Of a stretch of DNA of 64,000 nucleotides, positions 13,349 through 28,531 are shown in pieces. Position 1 is the stretch's first letter. Each line of letters begins with the position of its first letter. The position numbers were made by a program, and so were the translations under genes. This DNA comes from Nocardia sp. BSTN01 (GTDB lineage: Bacteria > Actinomycetota > Actinomycetes > Mycobacteriales > Mycobacteriaceae): positions 1 through 64,000 of the forward strand of contig NZ_JADKYP010000028.1 in the NCBI RefSeq assembly GCF_015354405.1, in the 5' to 3' direction. The notes under the pieces are model-generated. The model made no database searches. It saw only the letters and a program-made list of their open reading frames with translations, and had not been told where the DNA came from.

Positions 13349-14461
13349 CTACGAGGACACGGGAATCGAGGTCGCGCGGGCGCCCTTGCTGGCGAGGGCG
13401 AACACCGGGAGATCCAGGATGGTGCGGAAACCGGACTCGGCCGCGACGACCGCGGACACCGCGTTGCAGGCCATGGCAACTGTCGACAGGAAACTCTCGT
13501 AGCCGCCCGGTGCGGTCACCTCGATCGTCTGCTCGCGGCCGACGATGGTGAGGAAGTCACCGCGGGCCACAGGGTCGTCGGCCTCGAAAATGCCGAAGTG
13601 GGTGGCGAATTCGATGACCGGCTCGCCGGCCCGGATTCCCCGCGCCCGATGGACGACGCCGGCGACCGTGCCGGCCGGGACGGCGACGTGCTCGCCCGCC
13701 CTGTCGGCGCCGGCGACGAGGTGACGCTCCACGGGGTCCACCTCGATGCTGTCGAGGGTCCACTCGAGGCCCCGTGCCAGCGCGGCGATGCTCTGGTCGA
13801 ATCCGACATGCCCCATCACCCGGCCCGACCGCTGGCGCGCGTCGAACTCGTCCGGGGTGAGCCCGAGGCCGAACTTCTGCAGAATGGCGCCGTAGCGACT
13901 CATATCCGCTGTGCGCCGCACCGCCACGCGCCGGACCTCGGTGGTCAGCCCGCTGAGCACCAGCGGCAGCGTGTCCATGAGCATGCCGGGGTTGCAGCCG
14001 GTGCCCAGTACGGAGACGCCGTGCTCCCGTGCGACCCGGTCGAGCCGAGCCACGATCTCGGGATGGCTCAGGCTCGGCTCGCGAAGCTCCTCGCAGATCG
14101 ACACCACGTTCATCCCCCGCTCGAGGAGTGCCGTGATCGTGGGCTCGATTCCCTCCAGCCACGACGACGTGGCGACGACGGCCACGTCGGCGCGCGGCAG
14201 CACGTCGGCCGACGAGACGACGGGTACCGAGGGGGCGCGCGCGACCAGCGACGCCAGATCGACCCCCAGCAGCGCCGGCCGGATGTCCAGCGCTCCCACC
14301 AGCGCGCAATCCTCACGACGGACGAGGGACTCGACGATGGCGAGACCGGTGGCGCCGAGACCGACGACCACCACCTCGAGCTTCGGTGGCACGTCCCGCG
14401 TCGCTCCCCGAGACGCGGCAGCGTAGCCGGACGCCGGGTCGAGGGTGTTCGGAGTGCGCAT
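13349..14461 (-). CDS. Diaminopentanoate/dihydrodipicolinate-type NAD(P) dehydrogenase
   Basis: A 370-residue oxidoreductase. The Rossmann segment VVVVGLGATGLAIVESLVRR at about residues 31-50, a D-I-R after strand two, and the later GTGCNPGMLMDTLPLVLSG match the 2,4-diaminopentanoate dehydrogenase branch of the dihydrodipicolinate reductase family. Such enzymes oxidise or reduce amino acids at an amine carbon. The ATG at 14461 has AAAGG eight bases upstream; an earlier ATG at 14596 overlaps the operator at 14593. It is divergent from the cluster's other genes but shares the operator motif, so it probably belongs to the same pathway. Confidence 0.7.
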   Translation of the reverse strand: MRTPNTLDPASGYAAASRGATRDVPPKLEVVVVGLGATGLAIVESLVRREDCALVGALDIRPALLGVDLASLVARAPSVPVVSSADVLPRADVAVVATSSWLEGIEPTITALLERGMNVVSICEELREPSLSHPEIVARLDRVAREHGVSVLGTGCNPGMLMDTLPLVLSGLTTEVRRVAVRRTADMSRYGAILQKFGLGLTPDEFDARQRSGRVMGHVGFDQSIAALARGLEWTLDSIEVDPVERHLVAGADRAGEHVAVPAGTVAGVVHRARGIRAGEPVIEFATHFGIFEADDPVARGDFLTIVGREQTIEVTAPGGYESFLSTVAMACNAVSAVVAAESGFRTILDLPVFALASKGARATSIPVSS

Positions 14462-14592
14462 CGCACCGCCTTTCCGATAGGGGCTGATTCGGAGGGCACG
14501 ACCGGCGGACCGCTGCTCGAGCGCATCGGCGGTCGCCTCGATCGCGGCGTCAGCGCGGTTCTGCCCTGACCTTCTGCGATCAGAAGACTTGT

Positions 14593-14616
14593 TCATATGA
14601 CTTTATCATTTGATCA
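14593..14616 (-). promoter_or_regulatory. Cluster operator, site 1
   Basis: On the minus strand this reads as TGATCAAATGATAAAGTCAT plus ATGA, one of five related 24-mers in this cluster. It matches site 2 at about 20 of 24 positions and lies upstream of the dehydrogenase gene at 14461. The binding protein is inferred to be the TetR regulator at 25483. Confidence 0.65.
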
Positions 14617-14694
14617 GCCTGGAAACATCTCCTTCCGCGACAGAACTCCCGACGGCCCGGAGTGTTGACCTGCCGCATCGCCTTGGATACGCTC

Positions 14695-14718
14695 TGATCA
14701 AATGACTTAGTCGTATGA
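14695..14718 (+). promoter_or_regulatory. Cluster operator, site 2
   Basis: Plus-strand copy of the same 24-mer (TGATCAAATGACTTAGTCGT plus ATGA). Its core ATGACTTAGTCGT is close to a perfect dyad. It faces the small genes at 14790 and 15086, 80 bp from site 1 on the other strand, forming a divergent control region. Confidence 0.65.
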
Positions 14719-14789
14719 ATTGCCCCACTCGTGGGCGAGACCGACCAAGGGCGTCATCCGCGACAGAACGATGGGCAAGGGAAGCTTCG

Positions 14790-15017
14790 ATGCACTTCGC
14801 AGATCCGCAGCCACTGGACAGGGATGTGCAGCTTCGGATTTGGCTGGGCGGCATGGCTTTCGACTTTCGCACCACCCGTACGGCAGCCCTCACGTTCTTC
14901 ACCGAATGGGGACGTCGGCGCCGGGAGGCGATCGAGCTGGTCACCGAAACACCTTCCGATACGAGCCTTCTGCCGCGTCTTCCGTGCGAGCGGTTGTTCC
15001 ACGATCCTGCGAGTTGA
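14790..15017 (+). CDS. Small hypothetical protein
   Basis: A 75-residue frame starting MHFADPQPLDRDVQLRIWLG, 71 bases after operator site 2. A GGGAAGC run lies upstream of the ATG. The central part (FDFRTTRTAALTFFTEWGRR) predicts as helix; no family is recognised. It is supported mainly by position and frame, so it may not be a real gene. Confidence 0.35.
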   Translation: MHFADPQPLDRDVQLRIWLGGMAFDFRTTRTAALTFFTEWGRRRREAIELVTETPSDTSLLPRLPCERLFHDPAS

Positions 15018-15085
15018 GCTTTCGGCCCGAGTTCGCGCGATGTGCGCAACGGTCATCGAGAACACGAACAACGAGGGATATCGAT

Positions 15086-15352
15086 ATGGAAGACCCCAGC
15101 CGGGCGGCCGGTGCAGCATCCACACTGTCGAGGCTCGTCGTACAGCAACAAACGCGGGAGGTGCTCAATCACTTCGGCTCGTGCCCCGAATGTGGTTATG
15201 CCGCAAACGCATTCATGAATGTCACCTACTATGCGGACGGCACGGCAACCGTAACCACACGCGGGACGTGCGGGCTTCCCTGTGGTTGGTCCGGCCCCAC
15301 CGAGGTCACCAAGATGACCGGACCTACCTCGCCACGAGTCGATTTCGCCTGA
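15086..15352 (+). CDS. Small zinc-ribbon-like hypothetical protein
   Basis: An 88-residue protein starting MEDPSRAAGAASTLSRLVVQ. The cysteines in CPECGY and in GTCGLPCGWSG are spaced like the two knuckles of a zinc ribbon. Between them is a beta segment (FMNVTYYADGTATVTTRG). The GAGG-containing purine run lies about ten bases before the ATG. It is the second gene after operator site 2. Its role in the cluster is unknown; nucleic-acid or protein binding is a guess from the ribbon. Confidence 0.55.
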   Translation: MEDPSRAAGAASTLSRLVVQQQTREVLNHFGSCPECGYAANAFMNVTYYADGTATVTTRGTCGLPCGWSGPTEVTKMTGPTSPRVDFA

Positions 15353-15505
15353 GCGACGCCGCGACCTCCGTGGCCTGCGGCTACACAGCGAGAAGCCGCG
15401 AGACGAGCGCCCGATCTCGAACGGCCGGATGTTGCCGGCCGGGATCGGTGCGCCCGCCCCTGCGTGCAGGAGCCGGTCTCGCCCGCTCGCCGCGGGCGAT
15501 GCGGC

Positions 15506-16462
15506 TCAGTGGGCGAAGTGCCTCCGGAGATGGTGCGCCGCGTCGGCGACAGCGCGCCTGGCCTTGTCGATAACAGCCACCTCGGTGAAAAAGCCGTGCG
15601 GGACACCGTCGTACTGGCGAATTTCCACCTCGGCGCCGGCGCGCGCCGCCGTTGCGGCGAAATGCTCGTAGTCCGACCTCAGTACGTCCACCTCGGCCGC
15701 CACCAGCAACGTCGGCGGCAGCGCGTGAAGGGTATCGGACAGGATGGGCACAGCACGCGGATCCGCTTCGCTGTCCGCGGCGTAGTTCGACCAGAACCAC
15801 AGCGCGTCGGCCTTACAGAGAACCGGCGCGTGCTCGAAGGCGTCCCAGGACGGGCCCGCGTGAGCGTTCGATGTCGCGGGATACGCCAGGACGAGCGCCC
15901 TCGGCGCGGTGCGGCGCGCTTCGGCCAGCGCGGTGCAGACCGACAGCGCGAGATTTCCACCGGCACTGTCACCGGCCAGCGCGATCCGGGACGGGTCGAC
16001 GCCGAGTGACGCCGCCTCCCGCTCGACCCAGTCGTAGGTTCGCAGACAATCGTCCGCGGCCGCGGGGAAGACGTGTTCGGGGGCGCGCCGGTATTCGACG
16101 GAGATGACGACACACTCCGCCTCGGCACACAGTGACCTACAGACGTCATCGACGCCGTTCAATGTCCCGACGACGAAACCGCCGCCGTGGATGTAGATCA
16201 CGGCGGGCAGTCCGTGTGCGGACGAAGGGCGGTAACAACGCACTCGGAGCGGACCGCCAGGACCGTCGACGGCCCGGTCCTCGACGCTGTGCACCGGGCG
16301 TATCGGCTGTCGAGCGCCGTCGGCCGTATCGAAGATCGACCGCACGCCTTCCACCCCGTACCGGGCGTACGGAGGCGGCGGCGCCTGACGGAGCAGCGCT
16401 TGCGCGAACGCGCGCGCGTCCTCGTCGAGCAGGTCGAGCATGGCGGTTTCGGACAGGCCCAT
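15506..16462 (-). CDS. HSL-family alpha/beta hydrolase
   Basis: A 318-residue esterase of the hormone-sensitive lipase type. The oxyanion motif YIHGGGF is near residue 92, the nucleophile elbow GDSAGG near 164, the acid in EVDVLRSD near 261 and the histidine in VPHGF near 290. It is cytoplasmic and would cleave short acyl esters or a lactone, which would fit action on products of the Baeyer-Villiger-type monooxygenase encoded nearby. It is divergent from the operon that begins at 16586, with operator site 3 between them. Confidence 0.85.
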   Translation of the reverse strand: MGLSETAMLDLLDEDARAFAQALLRQAPPPPYARYGVEGVRSIFDTADGARQPIRPVHSVEDRAVDGPGGPLRVRCYRPSSAHGLPAVIYIHGGGFVVGTLNGVDDVCRSLCAEAECVVISVEYRRAPEHVFPAAADDCLRTYDWVEREAASLGVDPSRIALAGDSAGGNLALSVCTALAEARRTAPRALVLAYPATSNAHAGPSWDAFEHAPVLCKADALWFWSNYAADSEADPRAVPILSDTLHALPPTLLVAAEVDVLRSDYEHFAATAARAGAEVEIRQYDGVPHGFFTEVAVIDKARRAVADAAHHLRRHFAH

Positions 16463-16539
16463 CCGAGCCTCCCTTCCAGGTCACCTATCACCTCGCGCAG
16501 GAACGAAGCGGGTCTCGGGTATTGACAGAGCACCCGATT

Positions 16540-16563
16540 AGATCACATGATTAAGTCACATGA
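16540..16563 (+). promoter_or_regulatory. Cluster operator, site 3
   Basis: AGATCACATGATTAAGTCAC plus ATGA, the third copy of the 24-mer. It ends 22 bases before the ATG at 16586, the same distance as site 5 before the PhyH gene, so both probably overlap the core promoter in the same way. It could also serve the divergent hydrolase. Confidence 0.7.
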
Positions 16564-16585: not shown

Positions 16586-17221
16586 ATGTCCGATCCAACG
16601 AGTCACCCGGTGACAGGCACTGTGGCGGTGCCGGACCGCCCCACCCCGATGGTTCTGTCGGTGGCGCGTCGTCTTCGCGACGCGGTCGCCCGGGGTGCGA
16701 CATTCACCGCGAGCGACGACGTCCGGACGGTCCGCCTGTCTTCGACCACCGACGCCCAGAAGGCCTTCGTCACCTTCACCGGCTCGGAGATCACCGTCTC
16801 CGCCGACAGCGGCGCCGAGCCGGACCTCACCTGGGATGTGCGCTGGCCCGATCCGGTGCCGGCCGAGGTCGAGGGCGAGGCGCTGGGTGGCTTCGCGAAA
16901 GAGGTCCAGGTGTTGCTGTCCGGCCCCGACGCCGACTGGCGTTCGGCGGCGGAGACGTTCTGGGAGCGGGTGAGCGCGGTCCGGGGTATGCCGGCCGGCC
17001 TCAACCTCTACTGCTTCGATGCGAACGAATTCGCGTCGTTCGGCGACGCCGCGACCGGCTACACGTTCGTCGGTTCGTCGGCGGCGCTGGCACGCATGTT
17101 CGGCGGCCGTTCGCTGGTCATGGAAGAACTCGAGGGTGGTGAACTCGCGCTGCAGGGTTCGCTGTCCGATCTCTCGGCGCTGATCGGCGCCAACCTGAAG
17201 GTGGTGTGCGGTGAGCTCTGA
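16586..17221 (+). CDS. Hypothetical protein, first gene of the gamma-glutamyl operon
   Basis: A 211-residue protein starting MSDPTSHPVTGTVAVPDRPT after AGAGAGGCAG. I do not recognise a family with confidence; the alternating beta strands (FVTFTGSEITVSADS, LTWDVRWPDP) recall sterol-carrier-type folds, but the similarity is weak. The C-terminal portion contains GYTFVGSSAALARMFGGRSL. Its end overlaps the ligase gene by 11 bases, so the two are translated together. It may be a substrate-binding accessory protein of the pathway. Confidence 0.65.
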   Translation: MSDPTSHPVTGTVAVPDRPTPMVLSVARRLRDAVARGATFTASDDVRTVRLSSTTDAQKAFVTFTGSEITVSADSGAEPDLTWDVRWPDPVPAEVEGEALGGFAKEVQVLLSGPDADWRSAAETFWERVSAVRGMPAGLNLYCFDANEFASFGDAATGYTFVGSSAALARMFGGRSLVMEELEGGELALQGSLSDLSALIGANLKVVCGEL

Positions 17222-18578
17222 CCGTTTCGAAGAATTGACCTCGGTGACGCGCGTGCGAGTCGAGGCGACCAACCAGGACGGCGTCCTGATCGGCAAGACG
17301 CTCTCGCCGGCGAAGTACCGCTCGTGTCGTGAGAAGGGCATCGCGCTGCCCGACCTGGCCCTGGGTCTGGACCTGAACAATCAGTCCGCGCTCGGTTTCG
17401 GCTTCCCGGAGTGGCGGCGCAACGGCACGATGACCGACATCGAGTTGCGGCCCGACGAGAGCACGCTGGTCGAATGGAAGCCGGGCGTGGCTTCGGTGAT
17501 CGGCGACCTCTGGACCCTGCGGGGTGAGCCCATCGGGGCAGACCCCCGCCAGGCGCTCAAGCGCATCACGGCCGCGTACGCGGAGCGCGGTCTGAGCATC
17601 CTCGCCTCCGTCGAGATCGAAGCGACCGTCTTCCAGGAGTCGATCGATCAGGCGCGCGCCCAGCAGTACCAGAACCTCACACCGCTCGGCGGCAACGCCG
17701 GAGCCGCGCTCGTGCACGCGAAGTCTCCCGATTACGTGGAGTACGTGGAGGCCGTCGTCGCCCGGTTCGACGAGATCGGAATTCCCTGGGAGGCATATTC
17801 CGACGAGGCCGCCAGCGGTCAGATCGAATTCAACATCGCCCCCGCCGATCCGGTGACCGCCGCGGACCGGTGGGCGCGCGCACGCCAGATCATGCGCGAG
17901 GTCGCCTACTCCCTGGGCCGGTCGATCACCTTCATGTCGAAGTGGTCCGCGGCGTACGGCCAAGGCGCCCACCTCAACGTCTCGGTCAGCGACGAGCACG
18001 GCAACATCTTCTTCGACACGAACAAGCCCGGCGAGCCCAGCGAGCGCATGCTGCACTTCCTCGGTGGCGTGATGGCGACGCTCGAGGCGTCGACCAGCTT
18101 CGCGCTGCCGACCATCACCTCCTACCGGCGGCTGATGGAACTCGAAGGGCCGCCGACCACTCAGACGTGGGGCGTCGCGAACAAGTCGTGTGCCGTTCGC
18201 GCGGTGCCGGCCGACAACTCCGCGACACGTCTCGAGTACCGCCTGCCGTCCGCCGACTCCAACATGTACTGCACGCTGGCCGCGTTCCTGGCCGGCGGCT
18301 TGCTGGGACTCGACGAGAAGTCGACGCCGCCCGCGCCGTTCGAGCAGATGGCCTGGGCGCTGGTGCCCGGCAGCGTGCCCGCGGTCCCGAAGAACCTCTA
18401 CGACGCGGTCGCCGCGCTGGATGCCGACGATCAGCTGCGCCGGTACCTCGGTGACGAATTCGTCGACTACTGGGTCGGTCATCGCCGCTGGGAATGGCTG
18501 TCCTTCCACACCGAAGCCGAGCGTGACGACGCCCAGCTGTCGGTCTGGGAGTTCCTGCGTTACTTCGAACTCGCGTGA
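17211..18578 (+). CDS. Glutamine synthetase-like gamma-glutamylamide ligase
   Basis: A 455-residue member of the GlnA-like ligase family (PuuA, IpuC, GlnA3/4), which uses ATP to join the gamma-carboxyl of glutamate to an amine. Visible GS features are the metal-ligand strand ASVEIEATVF near residue 135, the EAASGQIEFN segment near 200, GQGAHLNVS near 250, TSYRRL near 305 and LEYRLPSADSNMY near 345. Start is GTG, overlapping the previous stop. With the aldehyde dehydrogenase and gamma-glutamyl hydrolase downstream it forms a gamma-glutamylation route. The amine substrate is not known. Confidence 0.85.
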   Translation: MSSDRFEELTSVTRVRVEATNQDGVLIGKTLSPAKYRSCREKGIALPDLALGLDLNNQSALGFGFPEWRRNGTMTDIELRPDESTLVEWKPGVASVIGDLWTLRGEPIGADPRQALKRITAAYAERGLSILASVEIEATVFQESIDQARAQQYQNLTPLGGNAGAALVHAKSPDYVEYVEAVVARFDEIGIPWEAYSDEAASGQIEFNIAPADPVTAADRWARARQIMREVAYSLGRSITFMSKWSAAYGQGAHLNVSVSDEHGNIFFDTNKPGEPSERMLHFLGGVMATLEASTSFALPTITSYRRLMELEGPPTTQTWGVANKSCAVRAVPADNSATRLEYRLPSADSNMYCTLAAFLAGGLLGLDEKSTPPAPFEQMAWALVPGSVPAVPKNLYDAVAALDADDQLRRYLGDEFVDYWVGHRRWEWLSFHTEAERDDAQLSVWEFLRYFELA

Positions 18579-18621
18579 CGTCCGAGGCGTCATCCGCCAT
18601 TCACAGAAGGGAGTGCACACC

Positions 18622-20112
18622 ATGACGACGTCCGACACCGAACAGCTGCGGACGCTGGCCGCCACCGTTGCGACATCGTTCGGGATGTGGGAATCCGGTG
18701 TGTGGGCCGATGCGGCCGACTCCGAGACCCTGCCGCTGCGCGATCCGTGGACGGGCGAACAGTTCACCACCGTGCCGGCGGCCGGCCCCGCAGATGTCGA
18801 TCGCATCGTCAAGAACGCCCGTGCCACGTTCGACAGTGGTGTGTGGTCGCGGATGGCCCCGACGGCACGAGGGCGCATCCTGCTCGCCTGGGCCGGCTTG
18901 ATCGAGCGCGATGCCGATCAGCTCGCCGTCCTGATCTCACGCGAGATGGGCAAGCCGGCCCACCAGGCCCGCGACTTCGAAGTCGCCTCCGCGGTGCGCA
19001 ATCTGCGCTGGTACGGCGAGCTGGCGGACAAGCTGATGGATGACTCTCCGCGTGGCCTCCAGGACGCCGTGGCGTTGGTGACGCGCGAGCCGCTGGGTGT
19101 CGTGGCAGCCATCACGCCGTGGAACTTCCCGATCAGCCTCGCCATGCTCAAGCTGGCGCCGGCGCTGACGGCCGGAAACAGCGTCGTCCTCAAGCCGGCG
19201 TTGCAGACCTCGGCCTCCTCGCTGCGGCTGGCCGAACTGAGCAGTCTCGCCGGGCTTCCCGACGGCGTGCTTCAGGTCGTCACCGGACGCGGCGCGACCG
19301 TCGGCACGGCACTGAGCCGACACCACTCCGTGGCGTGTGTGACGTTCACCGGCTCGACCGAGGTCGGCCTGCGGCTGCTCGGCGACTCCGCGGTATCCAA
19401 CGGCAAGCCGGTATCCCTCGAGCTCGGCGGAAAGTCGCCGAACATCATCTTCGCCGACGCACCCGATCTCGAGCAGGCCGTTCGCACCGCGACATGGGCG
19501 TTCACCTTCAACACCGGGCAGATGTGCACCGCCGGGTCGCGGCTGTTCGTGGAGCGGTCGGTGTACGACGAGGTGGTCGCGGGCGTATGTGATCAGATCT
19601 CCACGCTCACGATCGGGGATCCGCTCGACCCGGGTACGGTGCTCGGCCCACTGAGCAGCCGCAACCAATGCGACACCGTCCTCGAATTCGTCAAATCCGG
19701 TGTGCGCGAAGGGGCCACGCTGTTGACGGGCAGTGAGCAAGCCCTCGACGAGGAGCGCTCCCTGGTCTCGCCGACAGTGTTCGTCGACACCGACTCGTCG
19801 ATGCAGATCACCCGCGCGGAGATCTTCGGGCCGGTCGTGTGCATCCAGCCGTTCCGGGACGAGGACGAAGCGCTCCGGCTCGCCAACGACACCGATTTCG
19901 GGCTGGGCGCGTCGGTGTGGACGCGCGACGTCTCGCGAATCCACCGGATGGCCCGCGGACTCGACGCCGGCAACGTCTGGGTGAACTCGTACGAAGAAGG
20001 CGTGCCGTCGACTCCGTTCGCAGGCCGGAAGTTGTCCGGCAACGGTGCCGACAAGGGCACCTACGGGCTGGAGAAGTACACCCAGCTGAAGACGACCTGG
20101 ATCGCCCTGTAG
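18622..20112 (+). CDS. Aldehyde dehydrogenase (PuuC-like role)
   Basis: A 496-residue NAD(P)-dependent aldehyde dehydrogenase of usual family length. The general base is Glu267 in LELGGKSPN, and the nucleophile is Cys302 in NTGQMCTAGS; PWNFP and FTGSTEVG line the coenzyme site. The ATG follows GAAGGGAG. It lies 43 bases after the ligase and is likely in one operon. In the Puu pathway the equivalent enzyme oxidises a gamma-glutamylated aminoaldehyde, and the same role is inferred here. Confidence 0.9.
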   Translation: MTTSDTEQLRTLAATVATSFGMWESGVWADAADSETLPLRDPWTGEQFTTVPAAGPADVDRIVKNARATFDSGVWSRMAPTARGRILLAWAGLIERDADQLAVLISREMGKPAHQARDFEVASAVRNLRWYGELADKLMDDSPRGLQDAVALVTREPLGVVAAITPWNFPISLAMLKLAPALTAGNSVVLKPALQTSASSLRLAELSSLAGLPDGVLQVVTGRGATVGTALSRHHSVACVTFTGSTEVGLRLLGDSAVSNGKPVSLELGGKSPNIIFADAPDLEQAVRTATWAFTFNTGQMCTAGSRLFVERSVYDEVVAGVCDQISTLTIGDPLDPGTVLGPLSSRNQCDTVLEFVKSGVREGATLLTGSEQALDEERSLVSPTVFVDTDSSMQITRAEIFGPVVCIQPFRDEDEALRLANDTDFGLGASVWTRDVSRIHRMARGLDAGNVWVNSYEEGVPSTPFAGRKLSGNGADKGTYGLEKYTQLKTTWIAL

Positions 20113-20193
20113 GGCGCTCCCCGTCGGCCGCCGGCGGTGCGGGTCGAAGCCCCGAGCCTCGGCCCGCACCCGCGGCCAGATCCGAGAGACCTG

Positions 20194-21300
20194 ATGCCAA
20201 CGAATATCACTGCCGCAGTGCTCAATACGGCGCCGGGCACGCTGGAACTGGAAACGCTCGTGCTGGACGAACCCGGCCCGGACGAGGTACTCATCGACGT
20301 GCATTACGCGGGACTGTGCCGTTCGGACCTGCACGAGATCGAAGGCGTCTGGCCGGCCACCTGCCCGACCCTGCTCGGGCACGAGGCGTCCGGAGTGGTT
20401 CGGCGCGTAGGTGATCGGGTGAGCACCCTGCGCCCCGGCGACCATGTCGTGACGTGCCTGAGTATCTATTGCGGAGAATGCAGGTTCTGCCTGTCCGGCC
20501 GGATGACCCTGTGCCCCCGCCGCGGCTCGCTGGGGAGCCGGTCACGGCCGGTTCTGATCAACGCCCACGGTCGGTCGGTGCACCCGACCGCCCGGCTCGG
20601 CGCGTTCGCGGAAGCCATGGTGGTGCACGAACATTCCGCAGTGCGCATCCCCGACACCATGCCGCTGGCCACCGCCTCCGTGCTCGGCTGCGCGGTGGTG
20701 ACCGGGTTGAGTTCGGTGTTCCGCAGCGCACGGGTGGAGCCCGGGTCGACGGTCGCGGTCCTCGGCTGCGGCGGAGTGGGTATCGCGGCGATCCAAGGCG
20801 CTCGTCTCGCCGGCGCGCGCGAGATCATCGCCGTCGACGCCGCCGAGGCGCGGTTGACCGATGCCGTGAAGTTCGGCGCGACCGCGACCGTGCAGGCGGG
20901 GCGGGTCGACACGGTGGCGGCGGTGCGCGAGCTGACCGAGGGCGGTGTCGACTACTCGTTCGAGGCGGTCGGATTCGCCGCCACGGTGGAGCAGGCCTTC
21001 GCCATGTTGGGGCCGGGTGGCACCGCCACCGTCGTCGGCCTGGTGCCCGACAACCAGCCGGTATCGATTCGCGCCTCGGAGCTGTTCATGCTCGAAAAGC
21101 GACTCCAGGGAGCGTTGATGGGCTCCAACCAATTCCCGGCTGACATTCCCGGCTACGTCCGTTACTACGAGCAAGGCCGGCTGAACCTCGACGACATGAT
21201 CTCGGCGGTTGTGAGCCTGGAGCAGATCAATGAGGGATTCGAACTCATGAAGAACGCCGGGGGCACCCGGGTCGTCGTACGCATCGGAGACAACTCGTGA
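20194..21300 (+). CDS. Zinc-dependent alcohol dehydrogenase
   Basis: A 368-residue medium-chain dehydrogenase. Catalytic zinc ligands are in AGLCRSDLHE and LLGHEASG; the structural zinc site is CGECRFCLSGRMTLC. The coenzyme motif VLGCGGVGIAAI is near residue 187. It would interconvert an alcohol and an aldehyde, feeding the aldehyde dehydrogenase encoded just upstream. The ATG at 20194 gives the standard N-terminus; its stop overlaps the start of the next gene by four bases, which indicates coupled translation. Confidence 0.9.
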   Translation: MPTNITAAVLNTAPGTLELETLVLDEPGPDEVLIDVHYAGLCRSDLHEIEGVWPATCPTLLGHEASGVVRRVGDRVSTLRPGDHVVTCLSIYCGECRFCLSGRMTLCPRRGSLGSRSRPVLINAHGRSVHPTARLGAFAEAMVVHEHSAVRIPDTMPLATASVLGCAVVTGLSSVFRSARVEPGSTVAVLGCGGVGIAAIQGARLAGAREIIAVDAAEARLTDAVKFGATATVQAGRVDTVAAVRELTEGGVDYSFEAVGFAATVEQAFAMLGPGGTATVVGLVPDNQPVSIRASELFMLEKRLQGALMGSNQFPADIPGYVRYYEQGRLNLDDMISAVVSLEQINEGFELMKNAGGTRVVVRIGDNS

Positions 21301-22061
21301 AACCCCTCATCGCCATCACCGGCCGGCGGATCTCCGCCACAACGCTCATGGGCGTCGACAGCCGGTGGGCAGCGTGCCGGGCCGACATGTTCTGGGCCGA
21401 GTTCGGCATGAAGATCGCCGAGGCCGGTGGCATTCCCGTCCAACTTCCTTACGAGAGCGCGGGATCCGAGGCCATCGCCCGCGTCGACGCACTGGTGGTG
21501 ACCGGCGGCCAGGACGTCGACCCCGAACTCTGGGGCGGGCCACCTCCCACGCCCAACTCGACCGGCGGAGAAGTCCTGGCGATCGACCGGCGCCGCGACG
21601 ACTACGAGATCGCCCTGGTACGGCATGCCCTCGAGCGAGGAATACCGGTCTTGGGGATATGCCGCGGCCATCAGGTCCTCAACGTCGCGCTCGGCGGCAC
21701 CCTGGTTCCGGATCTGCCCGACCACGGAATCGAGCACTACTCCCGCGCCGTCGTCCCGGACCGCCGCCCGGACCGCGAACACCCCGTCGACTTCGTCGCG
21801 GGAACCCTTGCCGCGGAGCTCTACGGACCGCGCGGCGCGGTCAACTCGTGGCATCACCAAGCGGTCGATCGCCCGGGCGAAGGCCTCGTGGTCTCCGGAC
21901 GGGCACGCGACGGCGTGGCCGAGGCCATCGAGCTGCCCGGCCGGCCGGTGCTCGGCCTGCAGTGGCATCCCGAAGCCATTGTCGAACTGGATCCGTGCTT
22001 CCGCTGGCTTGTCGAGCAAGCGAAAGTCACCGTGGCACCCGCCACCGTCGCGGCACGCTAG
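21297..22061 (+). CDS. Class I glutamine amidotransferase-like gamma-glutamyl hydrolase (PuuD-like)
   Basis: A 254-residue protein of the peptidase C26 family, which cleaves gamma-glutamyl amides to release glutamate. The nucleophile is Cys122 in LGICRGHQ, and the His224/Glu226 pair is in LQWHPEA. GGQDVDPELWGG near residue 65 is typical of PuuD. The start GTG overlaps the dehydrogenase stop. Together with the ligase it would attach and later remove a glutamyl protecting group during amine oxidation. Confidence 0.88.
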   Translation: MKPLIAITGRRISATTLMGVDSRWAACRADMFWAEFGMKIAEAGGIPVQLPYESAGSEAIARVDALVVTGGQDVDPELWGGPPPTPNSTGGEVLAIDRRRDDYEIALVRHALERGIPVLGICRGHQVLNVALGGTLVPDLPDHGIEHYSRAVVPDRRPDREHPVDFVAGTLAAELYGPRGAVNSWHHQAVDRPGEGLVVSGRARDGVAEAIELPGRPVLGLQWHPEAIVELDPCFRWLVEQAKVTVAPATVAAR

Positions 22062-22141
22062 CGCTCGCTCGCCAGACGCTCGTCGTCGGCACCAACGACG
22101 ATCACGCGTCGCAGGCACGCTCAACGATTAGGAGATGGAAT

Positions 22142-23590
22142 GTGAACGGCCCGGCCGAAATCGACGTCGTCATCGTCGGCGGTGGTATTTCCGGAATCGC
22201 CGCAGCTGCCGAACTGCAGCGGAAATGTCCCGGCAAAAGTTTCGTGGTGCTGGAGATGCGCGAATCCCTCGGTGGCACTTGGGATCTGTTCACCTACCCG
22301 GGCATCCGCTCCGACAGCGACATGTTCACGTTGGGCTACGGCTTCAAGCCCTGGACCGAACGGGAGGCGATCGCTTCCGGCGGGGCGATCAAGAACTACC
22401 TGCAGGAGACCGCCGATCAGTTCGGCATCACCGAGAAGATCCGGTTCGGAACGCGTCTGGTCTCCGCGTCGTGGAGCAGCGCGGACGACACCTGGAGCCT
22501 CGGATTACGCGACGCGGACGGCGACACCCAGCTGCGCTGCCGGTTCCTGCATCTTGCCACCGGCTACTACAGCTACCGCGGCGGGTTCAATCCCGAACTG
22601 CCCGGCGAGGATTCGTTCGAAGGCCGGGTGGTCCATCCTCAGGAGTGGCCGGATGACCTCGACTTCCGGGACCGCAAGGTCGCGGTGATCGGCTCGGGGG
22701 CGACCGCCATCACGCTCGTTCCCAGCCTCGCGGGTGAGACGGAAAAGGTGACCATGGTCCAGCGGTCGCCCACCTACGTGTCCATCGCACCGGCCGTCGA
22801 TCCCGAAGCCGAGCGGTTGCGGGAGGAGATGGGTCCCGAGGACGCGTTCAGCCGGATCCGTCTGCGTAATCTGCACGCCCAGCAGGAGACCTACCGGTAC
22901 GCGCGGCAGCACCCGCAGGAATTCAAGAAGGCGATATTCGACGCCATCGACGACGTCGTCGGCGTCGAGGTCCGCGAAGCCCACTTCACTCCCACATACG
23001 AGCCGTGGGATCAGCGCGTATGCCTGGTGCCCGGCGCCGACCTTTTCCAGGCGATCCGCGACGGATCCGCGGACGTGGTCACCGGCCACATCGAACGGCT
23101 CACCCCGACCGGCGTGGCGATGCGGGACGGGACACATGTGGACGCCGACATCATCGTGAAGGCGACGGGACTGAACCTCGTCATGGGCGGGGAGGCGATA
23201 TTCGACGTCGACGGTGAGATCGTCGATTTCGGGCGCTGCTGGACCTACAAGGGCCTGGCGCTGTCCGGAGTGCCGAACCTGACCTACGCCTTCGGGTTCG
23301 TGAATTCGTCGTGGACGCTCCGTATCGAAGCGGTCGACGACTTCGTGTGTCGCGTTCTCGCGCATATGGACGAAGTCGGCGCACGCCGAGTCACCCCGAC
23401 GCCGGCACCGGGCGACGACGCCATGCCGCGGCTCCCCTATACCGCGGGTGTGACCTCCGGATATATGCAGCGAGCCGCCCGGCGCATGCCGGCCCAGGGC
23501 GACCACGAGCCCTGGCTCAATCCGCAGAACTATGACGAGACCATGCGACTGCTGGAGTCGGTCGACGACGGCGTCTTGCGCTATGTCTGA
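22142..23590 (+). CDS. Class B flavin-containing monooxygenase (Baeyer-Villiger type)
   Basis: A 482-residue FAD/NADPH monooxygenase. FAD binds at VIVGGGISGIAAAAEL (residues about 10-25), and NADPH at VAVIGSGATAIT near 183. Between them FEGRVVHPQEWP fits the FxGxxxHxxxW fingerprint of Baeyer-Villiger and related N-hydroxylating enzymes. The GTG start has AGGAGATGG seven bases upstream. It could insert oxygen into a ketone or hydroxylate an amine or thioether. Its place in the cluster corresponds to that of the PuuB oxidase in the putrescine pathway, though the chemistry differs. Confidence 0.88.
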   Translation: MNGPAEIDVVIVGGGISGIAAAAELQRKCPGKSFVVLEMRESLGGTWDLFTYPGIRSDSDMFTLGYGFKPWTEREAIASGGAIKNYLQETADQFGITEKIRFGTRLVSASWSSADDTWSLGLRDADGDTQLRCRFLHLATGYYSYRGGFNPELPGEDSFEGRVVHPQEWPDDLDFRDRKVAVIGSGATAITLVPSLAGETEKVTMVQRSPTYVSIAPAVDPEAERLREEMGPEDAFSRIRLRNLHAQQETYRYARQHPQEFKKAIFDAIDDVVGVEVREAHFTPTYEPWDQRVCLVPGADLFQAIRDGSADVVTGHIERLTPTGVAMRDGTHVDADIIVKATGLNLVMGGEAIFDVDGEIVDFGRCWTYKGLALSGVPNLTYAFGFVNSSWTLRIEAVDDFVCRVLAHMDEVGARRVTPTPAPGDDAMPRLPYTAGVTSGYMQRAARRMPAQGDHEPWLNPQNYDETMRLLESVDDGVLRYV

Positions 23591-25220
23591 GACGAGTATG
23601 GCCGTGGCGAATATGGCTGGTGCGAATATGACTGGGGCGCAGCACGCTTGGGCAGCGATGACGCCCACGGCGTTCCTGGATCGGGCCGTGGCCGCACGCG
23701 GATCCCGCATCGCGGTCGTCGACGGCGACCAGCGCTGGACCTACACCGAATTCCGCGATCGCTGCCGGCGGCTGGCTGGCGGGCTCCAGGAGCTCGCCGC
23801 GGGCCGGCCGGTGGCGGTCCTGGCACCCAACACCCACGAACTTCTGGAAGCCCACTACGGCGTGCCGTGGGCGGGAGTTCCCTTGGTGGCCCTCAACACT
23901 CGGCTCGGGATGCGGGAGTTGACCTACATCCTGGAGCATTCGGGTAGCGGGGTGATCGTGTGCGATGCCCGGTACGCGAGCCTGGCCCGGGAAGTCTGCG
24001 ACGCGCTGGAGAAGCCCCCGGTGGTCATCGGTTCGGGCAGTGCCGACTCCGACTACGAGAAACTGATCGCCGGCGCTGCGCCCTGCCAGGAGCAGATCAC
24101 CGACGAAAGTTCGCTGCTGGCAATCAATTACACCTCCGGTACCACGGGAGCGCCGAAGGGCGTCATGTACCACCATCGTGGTGCGTACCTGCAGTCGCTG
24201 GCCATGGCGAGTCACTTCGCGCTCGGCCCGCACTCCGTCCATCTCTGGACATTGCCCATGTTCCATTGCAACGGCTGGTGTTTCACCTGGGCCGTCACGG
24301 CGGCCGGCGGCACACATGTCTGCCTGCCCAAGGTCGAGCCCGCCGACATGTGGCGACTGATCCGGCAGCAGGGCGTCACCGGTCTCAACGGCGCTCCGGC
24401 CGTGCTCGACATGATCGCGCACGCCGACGATGCCTCGACGCTGTCGCGCGCCGTGTCGGTGGGTACCGGAGGTGCGCCTCCCGCACCGGCGGTGCTGCGC
24501 CGGATGACGCGCCTCGGATTCGACGTCACGCATCTCTACGGGCTGACCGAGAGTTTCGGCCCCGCGCTCATCTGTGAGCCGGTGCCGGAGTGGGAGGGTC
24601 TCGACGACGAGGCCGTGATCCGGCTGAAGGCGCGACAAGGCGTCGGCAATGTCGTGTCCCTGCCGCCCCGGGTGGTGGACGAGGCCGGCCACGACGTACC
24701 CGCCGATGGCAGCACGGTCGGTGAGATCGCGCTGCGCGGCAACAACGTCATGCTCGGCTACCTCGACGACGAGGTCGCCACCCGGGAGGCGATTCCGGAC
24801 GGCTGGTTCCGGACCGGCGATCTCGCGGTGCGCCATCCCGACGGGTATGTCGAGCTTCGCGATCGGAGCAAGGACATCATCATCAGCGGGGGCGAGAACA
24901 TCGCCAGCGTGGAGGTCGAGCACGTCCTCGCCGAGCACCCCGCGGTGCTCGAGGCGGCAGTCGTCGGGACCGCGGATCCCCGCTGGGGAGAGATCCCTGT
25001 CGCGTTCGTGCACCTCGCCCCCGGAGCCGGTGCCACGGCCGAGGAACTCGTGGAGCACGTCAAACGGACCCTGGCGCGCTACAAGGCTCCCCGCAAGGTT
25101 GTCTTCGGTCCCCTTCCCAAGACGTCGACGGGCAAGACGCAGAAGTACCTGCTGAGAGCCCGGGCGGCCGAAGCGCATTCCCCGGCAACGGAGGGTACGG
25201 GCGGCAACCGCGAGACCTGA
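23583..25220 (+). CDS. Acyl-CoA ligase, AMP-forming
   Basis: A 545-residue adenylate-forming enzyme that activates a carboxylic acid as its CoA thioester. The P-loop-like YTSGTTGAPKG motif is near residue 183, YGLTES near 320, WFRTGDLA near 416 and the catalytic lysine in STGKTQKY near 521. The ATG overlaps the end of the monooxygenase gene by eight bases. The medium-chain fatty acid ligase look (LPMFHCNGW) is common in FadD-type enzymes. It would take the acid product of the oxidative steps into beta-oxidation. Confidence 0.88.
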   Translation: MSETSMAVANMAGANMTGAQHAWAAMTPTAFLDRAVAARGSRIAVVDGDQRWTYTEFRDRCRRLAGGLQELAAGRPVAVLAPNTHELLEAHYGVPWAGVPLVALNTRLGMRELTYILEHSGSGVIVCDARYASLAREVCDALEKPPVVIGSGSADSDYEKLIAGAAPCQEQITDESSLLAINYTSGTTGAPKGVMYHHRGAYLQSLAMASHFALGPHSVHLWTLPMFHCNGWCFTWAVTAAGGTHVCLPKVEPADMWRLIRQQGVTGLNGAPAVLDMIAHADDASTLSRAVSVGTGGAPPAPAVLRRMTRLGFDVTHLYGLTESFGPALICEPVPEWEGLDDEAVIRLKARQGVGNVVSLPPRVVDEAGHDVPADGSTVGEIALRGNNVMLGYLDDEVATREAIPDGWFRTGDLAVRHPDGYVELRDRSKDIIISGGENIASVEVEHVLAEHPAVLEAAVVGTADPRWGEIPVAFVHLAPGAGATAEELVEHVKRTLARYKAPRKVVFGPLPKTSTGKTQKYLLRARAAEAHSPATEGTGGNRET

Positions 25221-25310: not shown

Positions 25311-25482
25311 TGGAAGACGTTGTCACCCAGCCGATTCGACAACCTCACCACGACCACACGTCCGACCGAGGGTCCTCCGGGTTGCCGAGCCACATGGATC
25401 TGTTCGACGACGGCAATGACCAGCCGTGCCGGATCCGAGCGTGTTCACACCGCCGAACGCGGCGAGATCCATCCGGCGCGAC

Positions 25483-26076
25483 CTACCCCCGAATCCCGCT
25501 GCACATCGCCGGGATTCCCGCGCAGATCACATCCGCGTAGGCATCGGCGCGCGCCCGATCCCGATCCGAGGCCCACTGCAACACAAGCCCGTCGGTGGCA
25601 CCGATCAGCACCGAGGCGAGATTCGCGATGGCCTCCGCGCGGGCGGACGGCCCGGCCGCGCGCTGCAGCACGTCGGTGACCGCCCGCAAGAAGACGTCGT
25701 AGGACTCCTTCGCGAGCGCCGGGCGGTGGCGGGTCATCCACATGTACAGGTCGACTTCCGCCAGCGCGTAGTCCGGATGGTCCATCAGCCAGCGCACCGA
25801 ACGCCGGATGACTTCTTGCGCGGTCACTTCGAGCTCGGCCGGCTCGATGGCGGTGGACTGCTTGGTGATTTCGGCGGCGAGGTGCTCGAAGACGGCGAGG
25901 AAGAGGCCGTCCTTGTCCCGGAAGCAGTAGTGCAGTGAGGCCAGGGGAGCGTTGGCCGCTTCGGCGATCCGCCGTGTCGTCGCGCTCGCGACCCCGCGGT
26001 CGGCGATCACTCGGACCGCCGCATCGATGAACTGGATCGAACGATCCTCTGTCGACACGTGGGGCAACGGATTCAC
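25483..26076 (-). CDS. TetR-family regulator of the cluster
   Basis: A 197-residue repressor. The HTH lies at residues about 17-63 (AAVRVIADRGVASATTRRIA, EAANAPLASLHYCFRDKDGL). The remainder is helical, with a WLMDHPDYALAEVDLYMWM segment in the ligand domain. It is convergent with the operon ending at 25220 and divergent from the PhyH gene. Operator site 4 lies 31 bases before its start, suggesting autoregulation, and the same motif occurs at four other promoters here. The inducer is likely the amine or acid handled by the pathway. Confidence 0.88.
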   Translation of the reverse strand: MNPLPHVSTEDRSIQFIDAAVRVIADRGVASATTRRIAEAANAPLASLHYCFRDKDGLFLAVFEHLAAEITKQSTAIEPAELEVTAQEVIRRSVRWLMDHPDYALAEVDLYMWMTRHRPALAKESYDVFLRAVTDVLQRAAGPSARAEAIANLASVLIGATDGLVLQWASDRDRARADAYADVICAGIPAMCSGIRG

Positions 26077-26107
26077 CTCATTCGCTCATCGGCGCACGTA
26101 GGCGCCC

Positions 26108-26131
26108 TGATTAATTGATTAAGTCAAGCGT
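26108..26131 (-). promoter_or_regulatory. Cluster operator, site 4
   Basis: TGATTAATTGATTAAGTCAA plus GCGT, the most diverged copy, in the TetR promoter. The right half of the motif is weaker than in the other sites, which is common for autoregulatory operators. Confidence 0.55.
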
Positions 26132-26259
26132 ACAGATCGCGAAGGCGCGGGGGCACGCGCGACCCTCGCGCAAGTGACGGCAAACACCTTTCCTCCCCGA
26201 TTATTCCGCTCGCCTCTTGACACCCGGTGTGGCGCGCCCCACAATCAGATCATTCGATC

Positions 26260-26283
26260 AGATCAAATGACTAAGGCGTTTGA
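26260..26283 (+). promoter_or_regulatory. Cluster operator, site 5
   Basis: AGATCAAATGACTAAGGCGT plus TTGA ends 22 bases before the PhyH start, matching the spacing of site 3. A second GATCA (26256) precedes it. Confidence 0.65.
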
Positions 26284-26305
26284 TCGAACGTGGAAATGGA
26301 GAGTT

Positions 26306-27169
26306 ATGACTACCGAAGCCAAGGCCGCTCTACGATCCGTCGCGACAACGACCCCCCTCGCCGAGATCCTCGACATCGTCGCGAAGGACGGCGGCGTGGT
26401 CATCGAGAACTTCCTGTCGGCGGACCAGATCGCGCGGTTCAACGCCGAGGTCGAGCAGCCCATGGCAGCGCTGGCTCCCGGCTCGACCCATGAGAACGAG
26501 ATCGTCGCCGAGTTCCACGGGGCCAACACCAAGCGACTGACGAACTTGGTGACGCACAGCAAGACCTTCCGCGAAGAGGTCCTCGAGCAGGACCTGATCC
26601 ACGAACTCTGCGACGCGGTGTTCCTCGAGGAGTCCGGTACCTACTGGCTGACCACCGCGCAGCTTATCGAGATCGGCCCCGGAAACCGGGCTCAGTTCCT
26701 GCACCGGGACCTGGAGAACTGGTACCCGTTCATCGGCATGGGCCCGCAGGGCCCCGAGGTGTGCGTGAACTTCATGATCGCGTTCACCGACTTCACCGAG
26801 GAGAACGGCGCCACGCGGGTCATCCCGGGCAGCCACCTCTGGGACGACTTCCACAACCGCGGAACTCCCGAAGACACCATTCCCGCGACCATGAAGGCCG
26901 GAGACGTCTTCTTCTACAGCGGCAAGACCGTGCATGGCGGCGGCGCGAACCTGACGACCGACCAGTTCCGCCGTGGTCTGGCCTTCGCCCTCAACCCGGG
27001 TTTCCTGACCGGCGAGGAAGCGTACCCGTTCCTCGTCGACCGGGACATCGCGAAGCAGCTCTCACCGCGCGTCCAGCGATTGCTCGGCTTCCGTTCCCAG
27101 TACCCCACGGGCTCGCCCGGCCTCTGGCAGGTGGACTACAGCGAGCTCGGGGACTACCTGAAGCTCTGA
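26306..27169 (+). CDS. Phytanoyl-CoA dioxygenase family protein
   Basis: A 287-residue Fe(II)/2-oxoglutarate oxygenase. The iron ligands are His133 and Asp135 in FLHRDLENW and His210 in TVHGGGANL, and an RRGLAF arginine binds 2-oxoglutarate. The family hydroxylates aliphatic carbons. The ATG has GGAGAG five bases upstream; an upstream ATG at 26267 lies inside the operator and is not favoured. A hairpin separates it from the aminotransferase gene. It probably hydroxylates an intermediate or the starting compound of the cluster. Confidence 0.88.
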   Translation: MTTEAKAALRSVATTTPLAEILDIVAKDGGVVIENFLSADQIARFNAEVEQPMAALAPGSTHENEIVAEFHGANTKRLTNLVTHSKTFREEVLEQDLIHELCDAVFLEESGTYWLTTAQLIEIGPGNRAQFLHRDLENWYPFIGMGPQGPEVCVNFMIAFTDFTEENGATRVIPGSHLWDDFHNRGTPEDTIPATMKAGDVFFYSGKTVHGGGANLTTDQFRRGLAFALNPGFLTGEEAYPFLVDRDIAKQLSPRVQRLLGFRSQYPTGSPGLWQVDYSELGDYLKL

Positions 27170-27200
27170 GGTGCCGGTCGGCACGTCTCTCGCCTCGCGA

Positions 27201-27233
27201 CCTGCCGGAGAGGCGACGAGTCTCTCCGGCAGG
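27201..27233 (+). terminator. Hairpin between phyH and aminotransferase genes
   Basis: CCTGCCGGAGAG and CTCTCCGGCAGG form a perfect 12-bp stem with a nine-base loop, 31 bases after the PhyH stop and 26 before the next start. It may terminate part of the transcripts or stabilise the upstream mRNA. Confidence 0.6.
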
Positions 27234-27259
27234 CCCGCTCGCAGCCCTCAAGGATATGT

Positions 27260-28531
27260 ATGGGAATCGACTCCTCCAGAACCGCATTCGAGCGGACCCG
27301 TCGCAGCGTCGGCGGTGGCGTCAGCTCGGGCCTTCGTGCCACGATGCGGCCGGTTCCGCTCTTCGTCGAGCGCGGCCACGGAGCTCACCTCTGGGACCTC
27401 GACGGCGACCGCTACCTCGACTACGTGATGGCCTGGGGGCCGTTGGTCCATGGACACAGTCACCCGCAGGTCGTCGACGCAGTGGCGCGAGTCGCGACCT
27501 CGATGCAGGTCGTGGGAATGGGTCATCGGCTCGAATACGAAGCCGCCGAGGCGGTCCTCGCATCCGTGCCGGGCGCTCAGCGCCTCGTGTGGACGAATAC
27601 CGGAACCGAGGCCGTGCAGGTCGCGCTGAGATTCGCACGAGCGGCGACCGGCCGGCACCGCATCGTCAAGTTCGCGAAGGCTTACCACGGCTGGCACGAC
27701 AGCGTGTACGCGAGCATGAGCGCGGACGACACGGGTGAGTCACCCGTCCCCGCCGCCCTCGGGCAGAGCCCCAATGCCCACGCCGATCTGATCATCAGCC
27801 GGTTCAACGACACCGCCGCTATCGCCGAACTGCTGGCCCAAGCCGAGGAACGCCGGATCGCCGCCGTGCTCATCGACCCGATCATGAGCAACGCCGGCGT
27901 GCTCACACCGGAACCCGGGTTTCTTGAAACGCTCCGCAGCCTGTGCGACCGGCACGGCGTCGTGCTGATCTTCGACGAGGTCATCACCGGATTCCGGATA
28001 GCCCGTGGCGGCGCGGCCGAGAGATTCGGTGTCCGCCCGGATCTTTCGGTGTTCGGCAAGGCGATCGCGGGCGGGTTCACGCAGAGCGCGGTCGTCGGAC
28101 GCGCGGACATCATCGATCTGGTGGAGCACGGCCTCACCCATGCCGGAACGTTCAACGGCAACCCCGTAGCGCTCGCGGCGGTGCAGGCCGCGATGGAGTT
28201 GTCCGCTACGCCAGGCGTATTCGACAAGCTGGAAGATCTGGGCGACGCCTTCGAGCAGGCGATCACCGACGTGCTGGTCTCGACCGGCGCGCCCGGCAGC
28301 CTCCGGCGCGTCGGGTCGCTCGCGCAGTTCGTGCCGCGCGATCAGGCGACGAGTCTGCACGGCACGGACGGACTGTGGGCAGAGATCGCGGCCGGGATGC
28401 TCGAATCGGGTGTCGTGTTCATGCCGTCCGGAAAGATCTTCCTCAGCACCGCGCACACGCTCGCCGACATCCAGGAAACGGCCGCTCGCCTCGAGCGGGT
28501 CCTGCAGCAGGTGTCTGCCCGTTCCGCCTAG
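27260..28531 (+). CDS. Class III aminotransferase (glutamate-1-semialdehyde aminomutase-like)
   Basis: A 423-residue PLP enzyme. The cofactor lysine is Lys267 in VFGKAIAGGF; LIFDEVITGFR holds the PLP-ring aspartate, and TNTGTEAVQVALRFAR binds phosphate. The sequence is closest in style to the HemL branch, but such proteins outside haem loci act as omega- or beta-amino-acid aminotransferases. No hemL neighbours are present. In the Puu analogy it fills the place of PuuE, removing the amino group after the gamma-glutamyl group has been cleaved. Confidence 0.85.
   Translation: MGIDSSRTAFERTRRSVGGGVSSGLRATMRPVPLFVERGHGAHLWDLDGDRYLDYVMAWGPLVHGHSHPQVVDAVARVATSMQVVGMGHRLEYEAAEAVLASVPGAQRLVWTNTGTEAVQVALRFARAATGRHRIVKFAKAYHGWHDSVYASMSADDTGESPVPAALGQSPNAHADLIISRFNDTAAIAELLAQAEERRIAAVLIDPIMSNAGVLTPEPGFLETLRSLCDRHGVVLIFDEVITGFRIARGGAAERFGVRPDLSVFGKAIAGGFTQSAVVGRADIIDLVEHGLTHAGTFNGNPVALAAVQAAMELSATPGVFDKLEDLGDAFEQAITDVLVSTGAPGSLRRVGSLAQFVPRDQATSLHGTDGLWAEIAAGMLESGVVFMPSGKIFLSTAHTLADIQETAARLERVLQQVSARSA

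Follow-up and report, generated by a model that had tools for sequence, protein, structure and literature searches.

Which route could bring a glutamine-synthetase-like ligase and a Baeyer–Villiger monooxygenase (BVMO) together in one gene cluster? The question is raised by positions 13349–28531 of a 64,000-nucleotide stretch of Nocardia sp. BSTN01 (called here the window; it is taken from one contig, NZ_JADKYP010000028.1, of a 7.79-Mb genome). Among named species, those closest to it by the ligase (98%–99% identity) are Nocardia cerradoensis, N. nova, and N. kruczakiae. We propose, with a probability of roughly 55%, that the cluster is one inducible catabolic regulon in which gamma-glutamylation masks an amine, a ketone in it is cleaved via the BVMO, and the glutamate is then removed. 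The genes, their conservation, and the promoter sites that they share are observed; the pathway chemistry is inferred.

Seven co-directional genes (16586–25220) follow each other with tiny gaps or overlaps: P1, the ligase, an aldehyde dehydrogenase (ALDH), a zinc alcohol dehydrogenase (ADH), a C26 hydrolase, the BVMO, and a CoA ligase. An HSL-family gene is divergent at the left, with a 2,4-diaminopentanoate dehydrogenase-like (DAPDH-like) gene farther left; at the right, a TetR gene is divergent from PhyH and aminotransferase genes.

13349..14464, minus: DAPDH-like/amine dehydrogenase-like protein (PF19328, DAP_DH_C, 2.3e-36); start codon uncertain
15506..16462, minus: HSL-family alpha/beta hydrolase, proposed ester hydrolase (PF07859, Abhydrolase_3, 4.6e-65; HGGG and GDSAG motifs)
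16536..16558, plus: candidate regulator sites GATTAGATCA and TGATTAAGTCA between HSL and P1 (pattern GATYARRTCA; exact 11-mer count)
16586..17221, plus: P1, 211 amino acids, without Pfam match, C-terminal part weakly SCP2-like; overlaps the ligase start by 11 bases
17211..18578, plus: glutamine-synthetase-like amine ligase (PF00120, Gln-synt_C, 2.6e-74; residue pattern)
18622..20112, plus: PuuC-like aldehyde dehydrogenase (PF00171, Aldedh, 2e-163); start inferred
20194..21300, plus: zinc alcohol dehydrogenase (PF08240 and PF00107, ADH_zinc_N 3.6e-29; structural zinc motif); start inferred
21297..22061, plus: gamma-glutamyl hydrolase of the class I amidotransferase fold, C26 (PF07722, Peptidase_C26, 9.5e-53; GICRG and WHPE motifs)
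22085..23590, plus: Type I Baeyer–Villiger monooxygenase (both BVMO fingerprints; PDB matches); start uncertain
23583..25220, plus: acyl-CoA ligase (PF00501, AMP-binding, 4e-78; PRK08162 620 bits, cut-off 677)
25483..26076, minus: TetR-family regulator (PF00440, 8.1e-12)
26116..26265, plus: candidate regulator sites TGATTAAGTCA (26116–26126) and GATCAGATCA (26256–26265) between TetR and PhyH (shared-site searches)
26267..27169, plus: PhyH-family Fe/2-oxoglutarate oxygenase (PF05721, 2e-39; HxD and distal His motifs)
27260..28531, plus: class III aminotransferase, glutamate-1-semialdehyde (GSA)-aminomutase-like (PF00202, Aminotran_3, 1e-75; PRK00062 354.5 bits, cut-off 398)

Conservation and regulation of the gene set

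Related loci were gathered by ligase similarity alone. Carriers occur in 16 of 99 genomes of the genus (E ≤ 1e-60), 13 of 397 of the order (1e-110), and 7 of 394 of the class (1e-100), and in 16 plasmid records. Forty loci were read at about 20–25 kb: the window, four named Nocardia loci (L002–L005), 12 other stretches, four plasmid loci (the top four of the 16), and 14 plus five further stretches. The IpuC plasmid locus serves as outgroup, and 11 weaker plasmid matches were left out. Of the 20 places of the genus search, four are seen as 4.3-kb loci only, with matches for HSL, P1, ligase, C26 hydrolase, and TetR, and one was left out of the comparison. The controls are 20 of the 76 Gln-synt_C places from a general search in 20 genus genomes (one limited to 10.7 kb).

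Presence was scored at E ≤ 1e-10 and coverage ≥45%, with reference proteins from the test loci, which favors these, and with near-identical Nocardia loci that are not independent. On this count, P1 is present in 40 loci versus 0 controls, the C26 hydrolase in 40 versus 4, ADH in 40 versus 2, ALDH in 39 versus 4, a BVMO-type protein in 37 versus 2, the alpha/beta hydrolase and TetR each in 36 versus 0, and the CoA ligase in 35 versus 5. An enoyl-CoA hydratase follows (27 vs. 0), then a flavin amine oxidase (18 vs. 0), an enzyme of the amine dehydrogenase/imine-reductase type (13 vs. 0), PhyH (12 vs. 0), an APC permease (11 vs. 0), and the aminotransferase (9 vs. 1). Every counted core partner gene, the glutamine-synthetase (GS)-like gene excepted, is found in at most five of the 20 controls. 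Some controls are probably amine ligases too, since 11 of 22 comparison GS proteins lack the flap glutamate, and ALDH together with C26 hydrolase is found at four of the control loci. The comparison leads us to reject a chance neighborhood. In other genomes the gene set stays together instead of being scattered, which supports the view of the sequence-only reading (an earlier note made from the window alone) that it is one functional unit. The cluster is real and conserved, and it probably forms one regulon.

The same genes recur in six named Nocardia loci, except that L005 has no DAPDH-like match; the DAPDH-like matches in L006 and L007 are at 45%–46%. In N. amikacinitolerans and N. neocaledoniensis, the PhyH, aminotransferase, and DAPDH-like genes are relocated and inverted, still within the cluster. 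The CoA ligase is absent from five of the 40 loci, and the funnelling of the masked compound to CoA in the sequence-only reading is conjectural, as are the alkyl chain or ring that it gives the amine. Plasmid copies are found in Rhodococcus and Tsukamurella; that of R. gordoniae (pDND3A, L046) carries two genes for PhyH besides GabT, SSADH, and PucR, and of the CoA ligase it keeps a 47-residue remnant, not counted as present. The enoyl-CoA hydratase is either fused to the CoA ligase or within the stretch, and the window has none. In L047 (14156–16573), an 805-residue CoA ligase has a C-terminal part matching the separate enoyl-CoA hydratase of other loci, as in L024; length and alignment indicate a fusion. 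Another GS-like ligase of the genus (L104–L107) is adjoined by ALDH and C26 hydrolase, with no BVMO or P1 match, perhaps a simpler gamma-glutamyl pathway.

The 11-mer TGATTAAGTCA occurs twice in the whole 7.79-Mb genome, once in each divergent promoter region (HSL–P1 and TetR–PhyH). The relaxed pattern TGATYAAGTCA has four occurrences genome-wide, against two for the reversed control pattern. GATYARRTCA, a pattern derived from these sites, matches four times in the window, always in the two divergent intergenic regions. A 16-mer comparison of the two regions is moderately unusual (3 of 100 shuffles are equally good), and the genome-wide 11-mer count is the stronger evidence. On the simplest reading, TGATTAAGTCA is a candidate operator of the cluster TetR. 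The pattern search of the window found no such site by the DAPDH-like gene, so the shared-site evidence for a regulon does not reach that gene.

The ligase, its partner P1, and the Baeyer–Villiger step

The flap glutamate of glutamine synthetase (Glu327) is Gly in all 40 ligases, Trp in IpuC, and Glu in 11 of the 22 comparison GS proteins. The DGS motif is absent from the 40 ligases, and the seven metal and glutamate positions are kept, identical in all of them. The position aligned with the ammonium-site Asp50′ is occupied by Pro, Ala, or Ser, whereas Asp stands there in 11 of the 22 comparison proteins. Organic-amine ligases have an extra N-terminal motif beside the amine pocket; on this point the comparison covers an insertion after the DGS position, which the ligase shares with IpuC and some comparison GS proteins. 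Against the GlnA model, the ligase scores 163 bits (cut-off 429). According to the excerpted text of PMC11335346, both the flap glutamate (numbered Glu357 there) and Asp50′ are lost in organic-amine ligases (GoaS). By its flap residue and missing DGS motif, the Nocardia ligase looks like such an enzyme. The gamma-glutamylation logic put forward earlier is supported; the ligase traits do not predict a substrate.

P1 accompanies the ligase closely. In 36 of 40 loci, by script, the P1 gene runs 11 or 8 bases past the start of the ligase gene, and the remaining four (L054, L056, L057, L120) contain the same overlap stretch, ATGTCTGA. A P1 profile (E ≤ 1e-12) finds 15 copies in 13 of 397 order-level genomes; these genomes are the ones that carry the ligase, and the copies lie beside it. 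The window P1 has no Pfam match and none to SCP2 (PF02036) at E ≤ 1. Seven of 15 family members do match SCP2 weakly at that threshold (best E 0.015), and alignment of P1 with an SCP2-like profile (hhalign) covers 47 C-terminal columns at 27% probability (E 6.5e-4). P1 is thus at most weakly SCP2-like. It may serve to carry a hydrophobic substrate, or it may form a second subunit.

For the monooxygenase, the class given to it earlier (Baeyer–Villiger, class B) is supported. The window protein carries both fingerprints, FEGRVVHPQEWP and GGTWDLFTYPGIRSD (Type I patterns FxGxxxHxxxWP and [AG]GxWxxxx[FY]P[GM]xxxD), and matches the structures of PAMO (1w4x, 5.9e-33) and CHMO (5m0z, 2.3e-32). The BVMO-type proteins of the related clusters fall into two groups, with 24%–33% identity between groups. 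On the ligase tree, for which long branches are flagged, the groups alternate with three changes counted and at least two forced by supported branches. A BVMO that is exchanged and yet kept suggests that the Baeyer–Villiger function is likely central, and from these protein sequences a Baeyer–Villiger step in the route is probable. The cluster hydrolase also comes from two Pfam families, PF07859 and, in L029 and L047, PF00561. In L048 and L063, which have no alpha/beta hydrolase match, an amidase gene is present.

Possible source of the ketone, and the other genes

The related clusters differ in the enzymes that could make the ketone. In L029, there is an enzyme of the MAO/putrescine/cyclohexylamine-oxidase type; other clusters have DAO-family oxidases that are weakly pipecolate-oxidase-like (136 bits, cut-off 600), RedAm-like enzymes (L048 and L030), or a saccharopine-dehydrogenase-like protein. 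All of these, as well as PhyH with the DAPDH-like enzyme, could oxidise the carbon next to nitrogen, and for this reason we prefer the opening of a cyclic or secondary amine to an aminoketone. PhyH and flavin amine oxidases share none of the 40 loci (12 with PhyH; 21 with an oxidase, on a hand-made list including partial matches), but the exclusion fits one switch on the ligase tree, so that the Fisher p-value (9e-6) means little and the case for the two as independent alternatives is weakened. As to products, the aminotransferase of L060 adjoins two CoA-transferase genes; together with GabT and SSADH on the R. gordoniae plasmid, they point to omega-amino acids.

All the enzyme genes named in the sequence-only reading are present in the interval it gives. 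Pfam and NCBIfam scans agree with them and motif checks support the families, although P1 and the TetR regulator had been omitted. The motif patterns match wherever tried in the window enzymes except for the pyridoxal-phosphate lysine pattern in the aminotransferase, whose sequence does contain FGKAIAGG; for the DAPDH-like protein, the check is limited to the Rossmann motif. The correspondence drawn with the Puu enzymes holds as homology and stays under equivalog level: PuuA 170 bits (cut-off 650), PuuC 495 (850; the best NCBIfam model for the ALDH), and PuuD 75 (266). The aminotransferase had been taken for PuuE. This is doubtful and we reject the identity, as its best match is of the GSA-aminomutase type (PRK00062) and not PuuE/GabT. 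The diaminopentanoate-type dehydrogenase is a relative by PF19328 and falls below the equivalog cut-off (NF040740, 254.9 bits vs. 400). Its PDB matches are 6g1m (AmDH4, 1.7e-51, listed as a dihydrodipicolinate reductase) and 6iau (3.5e-12, listed as an amine dehydrogenase). The nearest PDB entry to PhyH is DhiD (8zyb, 2.2e-59). A PuuB-type oxidase is indeed missing among the scanned cluster genes, where only a 39-residue DAO match appears (the FAD-binding fold in the BVMO frame); related clusters do carry MAO- and DAO-type oxidases.

Some neighboring sequences deserve mention. Between 14600 and 15505 there is no convincing gene; a frame at 14720–15352, without Pfam match at E ≤ 1, has a C-terminal CPEC...C pattern like a small zinc-ribbon protein. 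At the 3′ side of the cluster stands a possible further member of the unit:

29583..30887, plus: MFS transporter (PF07690, 4.3e-29); cluster-adjacent in L132 (97%) and L133 (99%)

It is followed by a 240-residue protein with a signal-like start (the pair spans 29583–31658), and both are kept adjacent in two relatives (97%–99%). Near the cluster of the other type, L026 and L027 hold relatives of this second protein at about 40%. OYE and MarR genes (window 32695–36127) adjoin the amine-oxidase cluster type in two other Nocardia genomes (L025, L026, L135; OYE 93% identical), so that one chromosomal neighborhood hosts either cluster type.

The proposed route, its rivals, and known systems

In the route that we propose, a gamma-glutamyl amide would be the product of the GS-like enzyme, for which P1 may be a carrier or subunit. 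A ketone would be made upstream, by oxidation beside the nitrogen or by hydroxylation (PhyH, DAPDH-like enzyme). The BVMO would turn it into an ester and the HSL enzyme would hydrolyse that ester. The freed gamma-glutamyl amino alcohol would pass to the gamma-glutamyl amino acid via the zinc ADH and the PuuC-like ALDH, and the C26 hydrolase would free the glutamate. Central metabolism would then receive both the amino acid and the remaining acid fragment through the aminotransferase and CoA ligase. More tentatively, glutamate may trap the amine chemically. From a cyclic amine with a 2-substituent would come a cyclic imine in equilibrium with the open omega-aminoketone; once the ligase with P1 caps the amine, the ring could not reclose and the ketone would be exposed to the BVMO. 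The imine would be made by PhyH and the DAPDH-like enzyme here, whereas relatives would use a flavin amine oxidase or an imine-reductase-like enzyme.

Several observations weigh against the catabolic route. L059 has no match for BVMO, hydrolase, or CoA ligase; L048, L060, and L063 have none for alpha/beta hydrolase or CoA ligase; and L025 and L026 have no BVMO in the stretch read, save for 42 residues of one where the L026 stretch is cut. In L024, the BVMO-like protein (17288–18946; a type found in 11 of the 37) has Ser for His in the first fingerprint, which makes the Baeyer–Villiger reaction uncertain there; its activity may differ. The ligase is only 33% identical to IpuC, and all 40 ligases have an Asp one residue beyond the aligned ammonium-site position, so that the apparent loss of Asp50′ depends on the alignment. 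The ALDH and ADH could also serve a different branch.

Among the other explanations, the one held by the sequence-only reading places the mask first: glutamate would be attached to an alkyl or cycloalkyl amine, PhyH would hydroxylate the product, the zinc ADH would turn the new alcohol into a ketone, and BVMO and HSL would cleave the chain. It has a precedent in isopropylamine degradation with its reported N-glutamylated intermediates, and PhyH in 12 of 40 loci. PhyH is not found in the other 28, however, and 18 of these (21 with partial matches) have flavin amine oxidases, which would act on the free amine; we find this reading rather doubtful. Unlikely is a Puu logic for a diamine, with one nitrogen masked and the other removed by an amine dehydrogenase or oxidase to leave a ketone, hence BVMO and hydrolase and not a simple aldehyde step. 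The PuuC-like ALDH, the C26 hydrolase, the MAO/putrescine-oxidase-like enzyme of L029, the DAPDH-like enzyme, and GabT and SSADH in L046 would suit it, but no gene suggests a naturally occurring diamine in which a secondary carbon bears an amine, and from the weak SCP2 likeness of P1 one would expect a ligand of a more hydrophobic kind.

Less probable again is a biosynthetic role of the cluster, in which glutamate would protect the amine. Glutamyl protecting groups occur in antibiotic biosynthesis, PhyH and BVMO are common tailoring enzymes, and the nearest PhyH structures are those of biosynthetic enzymes. Against this stand the APC permeases, GabT/SSADH, and CoA-transferase genes of relatives, the plasmid copies in Rhodococcus and Tsukamurella, and the lack of assembly-line genes among the genes scanned in and around the cluster. 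Finally, an ordinary glutamine synthetase beside a separate degradation set would agree with the Gln-synt_C membership and with the Asp near the ammonium-site position, but the flap Gly, the GlnA score far under cut-off, the co-conservation, and the shared promoter sites make it very improbable, and we reject it.

The catabolic regulon shares parts with several known systems. With the putrescine pathway of E. coli (PuuA–PuuE) it has in common the GS-like ligase, a PuuC-like ALDH, and the C26 gamma-glutamyl hydrolase; it differs by the added BVMO, ester-hydrolase-like enzyme, zinc ADH, CoA ligase, PhyH, and P1, by the PuuB not seen, and by its GSA-aminomutase-like aminotransferase. The cyclohexanone (chn) pathway, with BVMO, lactone hydrolase, ADH, and ALDH, has the same reaction order after the ketone, and is not known to involve glutamylation. 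The mymA operon of Mycobacterium tuberculosis groups BVMO, LipR, AdhD, and FadD13, that is, BVMO, HSL hydrolase, zinc ADH, and CoA ligase together, and is not known to have the ligase/C26 pair. Both of these likenesses are by description. Isopropylamine degradation reportedly proceeds through N-glutamylated intermediates, a feature shared with the route proposed here. Of the relatives with a named function that the plasmid search finds, its IpuC (plasmid pTC1) comes closest, at 33%. The 17-kb pTC1 stretch has genes for P450, ferredoxin, and SDR, but none annotated as a BVMO.

In Streptomyces coelicolor, the partners described for GlnA4 are a short-chain dehydrogenase, an ALDH, and a third enzyme that is either an amidohydrolase or an amidotransferase (PMC6529630, in excerpt). 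This ethanolamine pathway shares ligase, dehydrogenase, ALDH, and an amidohydrolase proposed to act on the gamma-glutamyl amide; the dehydrogenase is of the short-chain type there and a zinc ADH here, and BVMO and ester hydrolase are not in the S. coelicolor set as that excerpt describes it. The GoaS ligases AtdA1 and NpaA1, for aromatic amines, share the flap glutamate loss and an altered ammonium-site loop, but belong to an aromatic-ring route (PMC11335346, in excerpt; for NpaA1 the likeness is by description). The excerpt of PMC9477822 reports overexpression of a glutamine synthetase gene alongside genes for cyclic-amine degradation, and discusses it as nitrogen assimilation. A gamma-glutamyl ligase and a BVMO in one pathway were not found among the literature matches listed, judged by titles and abstract starts and with few subscription journals covered; nor was a paper on DhiD, on strain DND3, or linking Nocardia, SCP2, and amines. 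The earlier statement that no described pathway has this set is thus not contradicted among those matches, but part of the set is described with GlnA4 (PMC6529630, in excerpt). Gamma-glutamyl amine catabolism itself is known; what seems new from the gene content is the combination of glutamate capping with carbon-chain cleavage beside a ketone.

If the proposed route is correct, gamma-glutamylation would be part of a carbon–carbon cleavage route, beyond the masking of simple amines, with the Baeyer–Villiger step kept despite an enzyme swap. A sparse and wide-ranging actinobacterial gene set would gain a substrate class, and the undescribed P1 family a function, and the clusters would offer candidate enzymes that act on amine drugs, alkaloids, and cyclic amines. 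Should glutamate indeed act as a trap, bacteria would have in it a general means of degrading cyclic amines and alkaloids, and P1 would be a new obligate ligase partner.

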